Assembly: GCA_947088865.1 (NCBI GenBank) | Contig: CAMUHY010000003.1 | Location: forward strand, 1 to 64,000 | DNA: 64,000 bases | Reading direction: 5' to 3' | DNA from: an uncultured Eubacterium sp. | GTDB taxonomy: Bacteria; Bacillota; Clostridia; Lachnospirales; Lachnospiraceae | Shown: positions 739-53,176 of the stretch, piece after piece | Layout: every line of letters starts with the position of its first letter | How positions within the stretch are numbered: position 1 is the stretch's first letter | The notes under the pieces: generated by a model | What the model saw: only the letters and a program-made list of their open reading frames with translations | Database searches by the model: none | What the model was told of the DNA's origin: nothing | Made by a program: the position numbers and the translations under genes

Positions 739-2133
739 TTACGCATTTCTTAAAAATACCTCATAGCTTTTTAACGCTTCATATAAGTCCACCTTGCTGA
801 TAACCTCATATGGAGCGTGCATATTTTGCACACCAACGCCGCTGTCAATTACATTCATTCCATAATTGGCAAGTATATAGGCAATCGTTCCGCCGCCGCC
901 AACATCAACTTTTCCAAGTTCGGCTGTCTGATAACTAATCTTTGCATCGTCCATAATCTTTCTTAAATGTGCCATATATTCTGCACTGGCATCGTTGGAA
1001 CCGCTTTTTCCTCTAGCTCCTGTGTATTTCATAAATACAACGCCTTTACCAAAATAAGAAGCATTTTTCTTTTCACTGACTGATGGATAATTTGGGTCAA
1101 ATGCAGAATTGACATCCGATGAAAGCATATTTGAATTTGTCAATGCTCTTCTTAATGCCAACTCGGAAAATTGATTGCACTGATTCATTAATTCAGCAGT
1201 CATATTTTCAAAAAACTTTGAGTGCATACCGGTTGCACCAACACTTCCAATCTCTTCTTTATCAACCAAAATACATGCTGTTGTCCTTTCTGGATTTTCT
1301 GTATTAAGCTGTGCCACTAAGGAAGGATAAGCACATACTCTGTCATCATGTCCATATCCTATAATCATACTTTTGTCAAATCCATAGTCCCTTGCTGCTC
1401 CTGCAGGAACAACACACAATTCAGCAGAAAGGAAATCTTCTTCCTCAATGCCATACTGTTTTTTCAGAAGTTTTAATATATATTTTTTTACATTTTCTTT
1501 CTCATCTTTTTTAGGCTTTACGCCAATTTCTGGCATACTTCCCACAAGGACATTTAAGTCTTCTCCCTCAACAACCTTACTTGCCTTTTTATCCATCTGT
1601 TCACCCGCAAGATGAATTAACAAATCCGATATTCCTACAACAGGCTCATCTGCTTTTTCCCCCATTGTAATTTCTACACTCTTACCATTTTTTAATGCAA
1701 CAATGCCATGCAGCGCCATAGGCATAGCTACCCACTGATATTTTTTAATTCCGCCATAATAATGTGTATCAAGCAATACTAGCTGATTGTCCTCATACAA
1801 TGGATTTTGCTTGATATCAATTCGTGGTGAGTCAATATGCGCGCCCAATATATTCATGCCTTTTTCTATGGGCTGTTTTCCCACACAATAAAGCACGATA
1901 GCTTTATTCATATTGACACAATACACTTTATCGCCCGCTTTTAATGTTTTGCCGCGTGCAATAATATCCGACAAATTTCTATATCCTGCACTTTCAGCCA
2001 TAACAATGGCTTCCTTTACACATTCTCTCTCTGTTTTGCACTTGCTGATAAATTGTCTGTAATCTTCTGCAAAAGCAAATACATCCTTTATGCTCTCCTC
2101 ATTATACTTACTCCATGCAACTTCTCTTTCCAT
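739..2133 (-). CDS. M18-family aminopeptidase
   Basis: This is a cytosolic zinc aminopeptidase of family M18 (aspartyl aminopeptidase type), which trims N-terminal residues from peptides. The GAHIDSPR segment carries a metal-binding His, DKEEIGSVGATGM supplies the catalytic and ligand Glu residues, GHDDR carries a ligand Asp, and the C-terminal HAPYEVIS motif holds the last ligand His. At 464 aa it has the normal family length. I start at the ATG at 2133 because GGAG lies six bases upstream; an in-frame ATG at 2145 lacks a good ribosome site. It stands alone, with repeat copy 2 between it and scpB. Confidence 0.85.
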   Translation of the reverse strand: MEREVAWSKYNEESIKDVFAFAEDYRQFISKCKTERECVKEAIVMAESAGYRNLSDIIARGKTLKAGDKVYCVNMNKAIVLYCVGKQPIEKGMNILGAHIDSPRIDIKQNPLYEDNQLVLLDTHYYGGIKKYQWVAMPMALHGIVALKNGKSVEITMGEKADEPVVGISDLLIHLAGEQMDKKASKVVEGEDLNVLVGSMPEIGVKPKKDEKENVKKYILKLLKKQYGIEEEDFLSAELCVVPAGAARDYGFDKSMIIGYGHDDRVCAYPSLVAQLNTENPERTTACILVDKEEIGSVGATGMHSKFFENMTAELMNQCNQFSELALRRALTNSNMLSSDVNSAFDPNYPSVSEKKNASYFGKGVVFMKYTGARGKSGSNDASAEYMAHLRKIMDDAKISYQTAELGKVDVGGGGTIAYILANYGMNVIDSGVGVQNMHAPYEVISKVDLYEALKSYEVFLRNA

Positions 2134-2221: not shown

Positions 2222-2341
2222 ACAGATATTTACAATCCTCTACGCTGCTTGCTTAAACCACCTAGCTACTATCATAACTTTTGCAGTCCCCACTTATATC
2301 TTTGCAGCATCAAAATAAGAAACTCCCTTGATGAGATTAAA
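2222..2341 (-). repeat. Cloverleaf repeat, copy 2 (internally deleted)
   Basis: On the minus strand this matches the repeat at 20891-21050 from its AACCTCATCAAGG head to its AGCAAG-AGCGTAG-ATATC tail, but hairpin 2 is missing. Hairpin 3 persists with wobble pairs (AGTTAT against GTAGCT). The head overlaps the stop codon of scpB: the TAA at 2337-2339 lies in the repeat's first arm. The copy is more diverged than those at 20.9 and 52.9 kb. Confidence 0.75.
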
Positions 2342-7070: not shown

Positions 7071-7287
7071 ATATATCCCAGCAATGCCGTTCCCATCTTT
7101 TCCGACTCCTAGCAATGCTAGGTGGGTTACCGCAATCATACCGCTGCCTTCCACTGACAAAGGAGGCCTGACATTGGCATGACAATATAGGAGTCCCTTC
7201 GAAATAATGTAGGATCAAAATATGATAGGCTCTCGTACATTCCAGGATATTGTTCATCACAAGCAATAAAATACTATCATTTTTATT
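7033..7287 (-). ncRNA. Structured non-coding RNA, family not identified
   Basis: A promoter, a 250-base non-coding stretch and a strong terminator follow one another on the minus strand. The likely folded core is about 7073-7250. Pairings found by eye: a closing stem 7245-7250/7073-7078; a hairpin with arms AATGTA and TACATT; a long-range 8-bp stem GACTCCTA (7188-7195) with TAGGAGTC (7104-7111); inside it GTCATGCC with GGTATGAT (two G-U pairs). CCTAGC-ATT-GCTAGG (7108-7122) is a local hairpin competing with the long-range stem. Size and context would fit 6S RNA or a Clostridiales-type orphan RNA motif. A GTCAGG...GGAAGGCAGC segment recalls SRP RNA, but the fold does not match. A short reading frame here is probably spurious. 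Confidence 0.6.
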
Positions 7288-20848: not shown

Positions 20849-20890
20849 GATATTGTAAAATTTTATTCTTTGTATAAAGAAAATCCATTT

Positions 20891-21050
20891 TTTAACCTCA
20901 TCAAGGAAGTCCCCCACTTCAATGCTGCAAAGTCATAAGTGGGGGGGACTTCCTTGTTTCAGTGGGAGCTTATACTCCCACTGAAAAGCTACGATAGTAG
21001 CTATGAGGTTATGAGCAAGTAGCGTAGCGAATTGCGAATATCCGCTTAAC
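20891..21050 (+). repeat. Cloverleaf repeat, copy 1 (best conserved)
   Basis: Four stems abut with no unpaired bases at the junction. The closing stem is AACCTCAT (20894-20901) with ATGAGGTT (21003-21010). Hairpin 1 runs 20902-20956 (18-20 bp, CAAGGAAGTCCCCCACTT arm). Hairpin 2 is a perfect 12-bp stem TTTCAGTGGGAG/CTCCCACTGAAA (20957-20986, loop CTTATA). Hairpin 3 is AGCTAC/GTAGCT (20987-21002). A 40-base tail holds a further palindrome (AGCGAAT...ATCCGCT). It lies between the S1 gene's terminator and the DUF134 promoter, on the strand opposite to the genes. Other copies: 2222-2341, 48886-49039, 52944-53104. Confidence 0.9.
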
Positions 21051-21085
21051 TCGAACGCATATTCATCATTATGTCAAAAGACATG

Positions 21086-44440: not shown

Positions 44441-44473
44441 TAAAAAAAACAAGCGGATATTCACAATCCGCTT
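44441..44473 (-). terminator. Terminator of hicAB, built from the repeat tail
   Basis: On the minus strand AAGCGGAT-TGTGAAT-ATCCGCTT (44466-44473 and 44451-44458) is followed by GTTTTTTTTAG, a good intrinsic terminator 69 bases beyond the hicB stop. The stem equals the tail palindrome of the cloverleaf repeat, and the adjoining TTATTTGCTTATAACC (to about 44490) matches further tail sequence. Confidence 0.8.
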
Positions 44474-44541
44474 TGTTATTTGCTTATAACCTTATCATCT
44501 CTTTGTGCTATTTTTAATGTAACAAACCTTCATATTATCTA

Positions 44542-48885: not shown

Positions 48886-49039
48886 AAATATTTGCAATCT
48901 GCTTTACTGCTTACTTACAACATTATAACTGCCATCGCAGGTTTCAAAGGACATATGACTCCACCAAAACAAGCAAGTCCCCCCACCCACTTATGCCTTT
49001 GCAACATTAAAATAGAGGACTTCCTTGATAAGGTTAAAT
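48886..49039 (-). repeat. Cloverleaf repeat, copy 3
   Basis: On the minus strand the closing stem reads AACCTTAT/ATAATGTT, so the C-G pair of copy 1 has become T-A. Hairpin 3 is CTGC-GATG-GCAG instead of AGCTAC/GTAGCT, again a paired change. Hairpin 1 keeps its CAAGGAAGTCC arm and hairpin 2 is weak. It lies between the GntR promoter and the alcohol dehydrogenase terminator in a 425-base gap. Confidence 0.8.
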
Positions 49040-51544: not shown

Positions 51545-51620
51545 TTTAATCTCCCATTCTTGCTCAGCCTGCAAATTTTGGCGTAAGCACAAAGTAATCT
51601 CCACTTCTATAACGATTGTT

Positions 51621-51643
51621 AAGTGGATATTCACAATCCGCTT
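51621..51643 (-). repeat. Cloverleaf repeat tail over the hypD stop codon
   Basis: The palindrome AAGCGGAT-TGTGAAT-ATCCACTT on the minus strand matches the tail of the cloverleaf repeat. It encodes the last three codons and the TGA of hypD (Ser-Gly-Leu-stop). No T-run follows, so it is not a terminator here. Confidence 0.7.
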
Positions 51644-52880: not shown

Positions 52881-52943
52881 ATTTTTTCTCCATTCTATTA
52901 TTCTTAAAAGTCCATTTGAACATATTTTATCAAACAAATTTTT

Positions 52944-53104
52944 TTAACCTCATCAAGGAAGTCCCCCACTTCAATGCTGCAAAGGCATAAGTGAGGGGGA
53001 AGGACTTGCTTGTTTCAGTGGGAGTATAAGCTCCCACTGAAAAGCTACGATAGTAGCTAGCGGGTTTGAGCAAGTAGCGTAGCGGATTGCGAATATCCGC
53101 TTAA
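52944..53104 (+). repeat. Cloverleaf repeat, copy 4
   Basis: Nearly identical to copy 1 over its whole length. Hairpin 2 has the same 12-bp stem (53013-53024/53031-53042), but its loop reads TATAAG, the reverse complement of the CTTATA in copy 1. Hairpin 3 is unchanged (53043-53058). The tail palindrome is AGCGGAT...ATCCGCT. A further tail fragment follows near 53139-53160. It fills the hypF-hypC gap; the repeat is antisense to the operon. Confidence 0.9.
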
Positions 53105-53176
53105 CTATACAAAAAAATATCCATACTTCAATCAAACAAATATTTGCAATCCGTTTCATTTTTTATTCATAACTTC

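Follow-up and report, generated by a model that had tools for sequence, protein, structure and literature searches.

PATE-like elements are reportedly present in Haloquadratum. In Halanaerobium, they have been described as palindrome-associated relatives of the IS200/IS605 insertion sequences that retain only the ends (PMC7290912). The IS200/IS605 elements themselves choose their cleavage sites by complementarity to a guide located 5' of each palindrome, and REP sequences carry a GTAG motif beside a hairpin and are served by a transposase that is a Y1 enzyme (PMC8266576 and PMC7290912 for the former, PMC8266576 for the latter).

We analyzed a repeat found in a 64,000-nt stretch of DNA (the window) of an uncultured Eubacterium sp. 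(Lachnospiraceae; contig CAMUHY010000003.1, assembly GCA_947088865.1). The repeat belongs to a large and apparently undescribed family of gene-less elements of ~65-160 bases; no prior description was found among open-licence PubMed Central papers. It is probably related to IS200/IS605, PATE-like and non-autonomous, and mobilised in single-stranded form by a Y1 transposase acting in trans. Like the PATE-like elements, it is small and gene-less, has palindromic ends and presumably depends on a transposase encoded elsewhere, but its left end is a branched cloverleaf that draws the target into the closing stem, our searches revealed no full-length IS to match it, and the family extends over several genera with a large sequence turnover under a constant structure. 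With IS200/IS605 elements such as IS608, IS605 and ISDra2, it shares insertion 3' of a short T-rich site without target duplication, subterminal hairpins that have a guide at their 5' foot, and a preference for the lagging strand. In contrast to those elements, it has neither tnpA nor tnpB, its guide pairs linearly as a continuation of the closing stem, and a single core hairpin may serve both ends.

The best-preserved copy in the window, at 20.9 kb, is composed of the following parts, all on the plus strand:

20891-20895, plus strand: target TTTAA, retained at the left junction (boundary placed as in the empty sites of sister families; TTTAA-C is conserved in copies from the same genome)
20896-21050, plus strand: cloverleaf element of 155 bp that starts with C and ends with CTTAAC (boundaries by analogy with sister families)
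20893-20901, plus strand: 5' strand of the 9-bp closing stem, TAACCTCAT, whose first three bases belong to the target
20902-20956, plus strand: hairpin 1 (folding and alignment)
20957-20986, plus strand: hairpin 2, a 30-nt palindrome with the loop in its rarer orientation, CTTATA
20987-21002, plus strand: hairpin 3, AGCTAC GATA GTAGCT (folding and alignment)
21003-21011, plus strand: 3' strand of the closing stem, ATGAGGTTA, ending in TTA, the guide bases that pair with the target
21012-21038, plus strand: core tail hairpin, GCAA (21015-21018) with TTGC (21032-21035), an inner GC/GC and a three-base loop
21039-21050, plus strand: right end, TATCCGCTTAAC, with the right junction after CTTAAC

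A sequence-only reading of the window had described an 8-bp closing stem around three hairpins that abut directly, followed by a palindromic tail, and this architecture is borne out. The stem AACCTCAT (20894-20901) pairs with ATGAGGTT (21003-21010) and reaches 9 bp when T20893/A21011 is included; the three hairpins (20902-20956, 20957-20986 and 20987-21002) fill it with zero junction bases; and the tail (21012-21050) also folds, in its family consensus. The RNA fold of 20885-21060 is far from chance (z = -8.6), and the single-stranded DNA fold of 20892-21011 has z = -14.7 relative to dinucleotide shuffles. The core tail hairpin (21012-21038 in this copy) is the most conserved sequence of the family. 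Among copies in the same genome that have hairpin 2, its loop reads TATAAG in 25/34 and CTTATA in 3/34, as is expected if the palindrome can invert. No tRNA or tmRNA was detected within the 64-kb window; a 6S RNA was identified at 7071-7251 on the minus strand (72.4 bits, gathering threshold 46.4).

Five further copies or remnants were found in the window:

52948-53105, plus strand: second full-length copy, with target TTTAA at 52943-52947 and a degenerate closing stem
48888-49038, minus strand: third copy, decayed
2225-2341, minus strand: fourth copy, decayed, lacking hairpin 2
44451-44495, minus strand: remnant with the 3' strand of the closing stem and the tail
51618-51642, minus strand: remnant with the tail alone

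The cloverleaf had been attributed to four copies in the window alike, but single-stranded DNA folding finds it perfect only at 20.9 kb and weaker or decayed in the other three. The 52.9-kb copy keeps its three hairpins, while its closing stem is missing from the minimum free energy structure and comprises 4 bp in the centroid. The fold of the 48.9-kb copy is weak (z = -2.1), and that of the 2.2-kb copy is no better than those of shuffled sequences (z = +0.8). The paired substitutions quoted for the third copy are present in its sequence, but its closing stem, as judged by eye, is also mismatched.

The element is abundant in its own genome, a 3.29-Mb draft in 48 contigs. With up to 3 mismatches allowed, the 24-nt right end occurs 116 times and its reversed control not once, and blastn, with 40 of 209 candidates scored, gave 40 places where at least ~100 bases of the 180-base query matched, self-complement matches aside. 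When 100 distinct tails from 100 loci of this genome were classified, 31 proved to be full length (head and all three hairpins), 11 lacked hairpin 2, 24 consisted of head and tail only, 19 of the tail only, and 15 showed other combinations. The head-plus-tail minimal forms look like deletion products. An alignment with flanks has sharp boundaries, TTTAA-CC on the left and CTTAAC on the right. Many of these copies are decayed, and covariation within this genome alone is modest: in 39 copies, the closing stem was not recovered by RNAalifold and only 7/41 pairs had a double change. On the element strand, G-T cells outnumber A-C cells (61 versus 24), so the fold seems to be kept on that strand.

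Outside this genome, the sequence-only reading had proposed a covariance-model search, which, like the other searches, found further copies both in the own genome and elsewhere. The DNA query matched 6/61 genomes, own included: the own genome and G036 have full copies, G015 and G039 contain tails, and in G003 and G008 the match is limited to 26 bases of hairpin 2. The tail pattern was present in 11/392 genomes of the order, again with the own genome included. Under strict filters, a covariance model derived from 12 copies matched 5/391 genomes of the class, namely the own genome, G146, G046, which has a new divergent family, and two weak cases (G077 and G186) that turned out to be other palindromes carrying a core-like module. 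At least 111 stretches from named genomes match, and most of the 80 titles listed name Lachnospiraceae or genera of that family, for example Acetitomaculum ruminis, Lachnospira, Blautia, Hespellia and Eubacterium sp. MSJ-13. Viral contigs yielded one exact pattern match, so phage carriage is rare in that collection. The family spans several genera of gut and rumen Lachnospiraceae and is patchy across genomes.

Two loci (L281 and L288) have an extra ~50-base hairpin-like sequence inside the tail, between ATGA and AAGTAGC. A G015 locus (L072, near 1250-1550, minus strand) contains a ~132-bp tandem repeat in which a different stem carries a core module of similar kind (GAGCAAGGAGCGCAGCGGATTGCGAA), and L357 and L358 are further palindromes that carry such a module. 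A large number of Eubacterium sp. MSJ-13 contigs (loci among L180-L290) terminate inside the element, and the repeat seems to break assemblies.

The sequence-only reading took paired substitutions as a sign of selection on structure or of mobility acting on single-stranded DNA. Conservation of the structure is upheld by strong covariation, the decisive part of which comes from other genomes. We assembled 22 diverse copies (less than ~88% alike), 12 from the set whose left ends had been anchored and 10 added by their head sequence, and aligned them with MAFFT, fitting the alignment to no structure. In that alignment, 35/57 pairs have changed on both sides and are still paired, and 85.8% of cells pair, compared to 35-45% when the alignment is slid; 0/500 shuffles reach any of the measures. 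Helices outside the closing stem, which were untouched by the rule used to select the anchored copies, supply 28 of the 35 double-changed pairs. For 12 copies of one class alone, double changes were found in 18/57 pairs, with the pair-type measure reached by 16/500 shuffles. The closing stem itself, anchored without gaps, has 191/198 cells paired, a share that is inflated since the 12 anchored copies had been chosen by a rule demanding an exact 5-nt closing-stem complement; it shows 43 double changes versus a shuffle mean of 10.8 (0/2000 shuffles), and its number of pair types is matched by 84/2000 shuffles. Closing stems differ by family (AACCTCAT/ATGAGGTT, AACCGAAT/ATTCGGTT, AACCAAAT/ATTTGGTT, GAACGCAG/CTGCGTTC and GAACCATT/AATGGTTC), as do the core tail stems (GCAA/TTGC, GGAA/TTCC, GTAA/TTAC and GCAT/ATGC, with GTAC/GTAC in G046). 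A stem enclosing exactly three hairpins is predicted for 19/22 copies with RNA parameters and 18/22 with DNA parameters, and for 26/1100 mononucleotide shuffles. GTAGC precedes the inner hairpin in 22/22 copies. A further tail pairing, GCGGA/TCCGC, was dropped because several copies from the own genome read CCACTT and the G046 family lacks it. A strand-specific fold is kept, with the cloverleaf at the left end and the core hairpin at the right end, and subterminal strand-specific hairpins of the kind found in IS200/IS605-type elements are present by folding, G-T excess and covariation. Both observations on which the sequence-only reading had staked its case, further copies and covariation, were made, the latter in an alignment tested against shuffles.

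Empty sites in relatives, which had been suggested as a means to define the exact ends, were found in sister families by comparing joined flanks with 64 genomes of one genus; the boundaries of the window's own family follow from them by analogy. In the clearest case, the flanks of L143 and L292 are 99.8% identical, and TTTTTTGAA[element]ACATG in the former corresponds to TTTTTTGAA-ACATG in the latter, with no target duplication. A second clean site (L135 versus L322) obeys the same rule, with insertion 3' of TTGAA and no duplication. For the TTTAA class, L126 versus L349 reads TTTTAA-TGG, where the junction is uncertain by two bases and the right end reads CTTGAA. L134 agrees with L294 and L323 on the left side (TTTGAA), and L295 reads TTTAAA there; relative to all three, the occupied site contains an additional 16 bases at its right side, ending in TTTAC, as would result from right cleavage at a site farther downstream. 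L133 versus L293 has TTGG in place of the expected TTGAA, and flank comparisons for L125 and L136 gave no decisive empty site. A ~65-base form without hairpins 1 and 2 is common to L133, L134, L135, L141, L143 and L150. Since two of these short elements are the ones with clean empty sites, hairpins 1 and 2 are probably dispensable for insertion and not needed for movement, with their later deletion also possible. The element is thus dispersed, sharp-ended and patchy in distribution, and in sister families it inserts without duplication directly 3' of a short T-rich site.

The bases of the target at the left junction pair with an extension of the closing stem that lies immediately 5' to the core hairpin, and both partners co-vary between two classes of elements. 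With an anchor placed inside the closing stem, the left end could be located in 108/245 distinct tails and in none of the other 137. Copies with the guide TTCA (before TGAG) have the target TGAA in 42/45 anchored cases, and those with the guide TTA have TTAA in 37/45; the other 18 anchored copies, with the guide TT or another, have mixed targets. This co-change, a correlation, matches the prediction of a base-pairing guide, and two lineages alone could also give it. Right ends follow the class too (CTTTAC in 61/64 TTCA tails; CTTGAC or CTTAAC in 67/91 TTA tails), though the analysis established no sequence that pairs with the right cleavage site.

Orientation provides additional evidence. The G-rich strand is normally the template of lagging-strand synthesis, and the element strand is the G-rich one for 99/122 tails of named loci (p 2e-12) and for 53/82 in the own genome (p 0.011), with local GC skew as the proxy with many copies coming from few organisms, and with neighbouring or near-identical copies being non-independent. 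Such a bias fits single-strand transposition. The element also runs along the direction of most neighbouring coding sequence in 89/122 copies of named loci. Only 3/204 tails lie inside an open reading frame of 120 aa or more. Where gene direction and skew conflict, orientation follows the skew in 9/10 named cases and in 13/22 own cases; the latter means that the own genome alone does not decide between the two. For comparison, a published set of IS605 elements had no strand preference, with 10/22 leading (PMC7290912).

The enzyme that we propose to act on these ends was sought in several ways. The own genome has four matches to PF01797 (Y1_Tnp): one of them is strong and intact, two lie next to tnpB and contain an in-frame TAG, and one scores lower (75.9 bits). 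No association of PF01797 with the element was detected (8/11 tail-bearing genomes versus 233/392 overall, with 3 holders lacking PF01797); a suggestive co-distribution in a 28-genome sample vanished across the 392 genomes. Among 236 distinct tails, many of them in loci with only ~1.5 kb of flank, no autonomous element with the same ends was seen. Head-like matches more than 400 bases upstream of those tails comprised 2 exact and 25 one-mismatch cases, and L230, the only long-spacing case examined as a putative autonomous copy, resolved into two separate elements flanking ordinary genes. The ends of IS200/IS605 loci displayed from holder genomes had no match to the element. The suggestion that the repeat is a guide-RNA-like end of a TnpB element found no backing, as no TnpB gene was seen attached to it and the displayed TnpB right ends differ from the tail.

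One lead did emerge from these comparisons. An IS605-type element of G003 has the target TTTAA, a left end starting with C and the hairpin GAGCAAG...ATTGCGA, and in a related TnpA/TnpB group of the same order TTTAAC precedes the left-end hairpin (often GCAAG...ATTGC) in 12/18 displayed loci, by eye. The TnpA of G003 is 68-70% identical to those of G036 and G365, both of which hold the repeat. The L327 TnpA group occurs in 23/392 genomes, including 2/11 repeat holders and excluding the own genome, and shows no co-distribution with the repeat. A G003/L327-type TnpA as the mobilising enzyme is a lead, not a finding.

These data support the proposal of the sequence-only reading that a non-autonomous element is moved, as single-stranded DNA, by a hairpin-recognising transposase: the empty sites and the strand bias speak for movement, and the enzyme is one that we infer. 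A Y1 HUH transposase (TnpA) supplied in trans would bind the core hairpin on the lagging-strand template. The guide would place the left cleavage site and the right cut would follow CTTNAC, after which a single-stranded circle would be excised and pasted behind another TTTAA or TTGAA. A more specific version holds that the end is self-targeting: the element would fold round its own target, chosen by linear pairing with the closing-stem guide, and one hairpin would serve both ends. In its bolder form, the transcribed cloverleaf, rather than the DNA strand, would do the choosing, making this a gene-less RNA-guided mobile element. We consider the self-targeting end, in either form, rather unlikely.

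Still less probable is a REP-like origin, in which the GTAG-bearing core hairpin would be a REP for a domesticated TnpA-REP (RAYT) and the cloverleaf its cargo. The invariant GTAGC before the inner hairpin and the core-like modules in other palindromes of the order (L072, L357 and L358) agree with such an origin, and the family shares with REPs and REPINs a high copy number, an extragenic location and GTAG before a hairpin. However, the element is longer than these, branched and governed by a sharp target rule, and IS200/IS605 ends are a better match for its exact TTTAA/TTGAA targets and their paired guides. No RAYT gene was seen among the PF01797 matches of the own genome, all four of which look IS200/IS605-like by context, as judged with a general PF01797 model that is not specific for RAYT.

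The orphan structured RNA put forward by the sequence-only reading fits the strong covariation, yet it explains fewer observations than mobility. According to this alternative, to which we likewise give little credence, the repeat is an RNA gene or an mRNA 3' element that is kept for its RNA fold and spread otherwise, with Clostridiales-1 (Rfam RF01699) as a relative. It would account for the covariation with tolerance of G-U on one strand and for the alignment of most copies with the neighbouring coding sequence, and the core module matches RF01699 at E 0.002, the module GAGCA-GnAGC..GCGGA-TGCGAA being shared. The overall architecture of Clostridiales-1 is different, though, and the RF01699 scores (20.2 and 23.9) are far below the gathering threshold of 48 bits; 0/20 loci tested reach gathering for this or any other Rfam family. 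Clostridiales-1, whose consensus holds the core module of the element, may itself be part of a mobile element. Mobility of the repeat is indicated by duplication-free insertion behind a fixed target, by how often entire hairpins are lost and by the many decayed copies. The TTAA-like letters at both ends in the window's family speak for a MITE, derived from either a cut-and-paste (DDE) or a TTAA-specific transposon. This can hardly be correct, because the right ends TTGAC and TTTAC of other families are not TTAA, the two clean empty sites (of the TTGAA family) have no duplication, and the terminal inverted repeats, by eye, span only a few bases. Integron attC sites were considered and rejected since TTGAAC left ends do not fit them.

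If the ends are indeed self-targeting, the landing site would be re-programmable by changing three or four bases. The link between guide and target makes the choice of target by base pairing directly testable. The ~65-base forms would be very small natural substrates for single-strand transposition. The family may also account for contig breaks and for many unexplained intergenic palindromes in these genomes. It is a widespread repeat of gut and rumen Lachnospiraceae, in which the four-way fold of the ends persists while many of its base pairs turn over.
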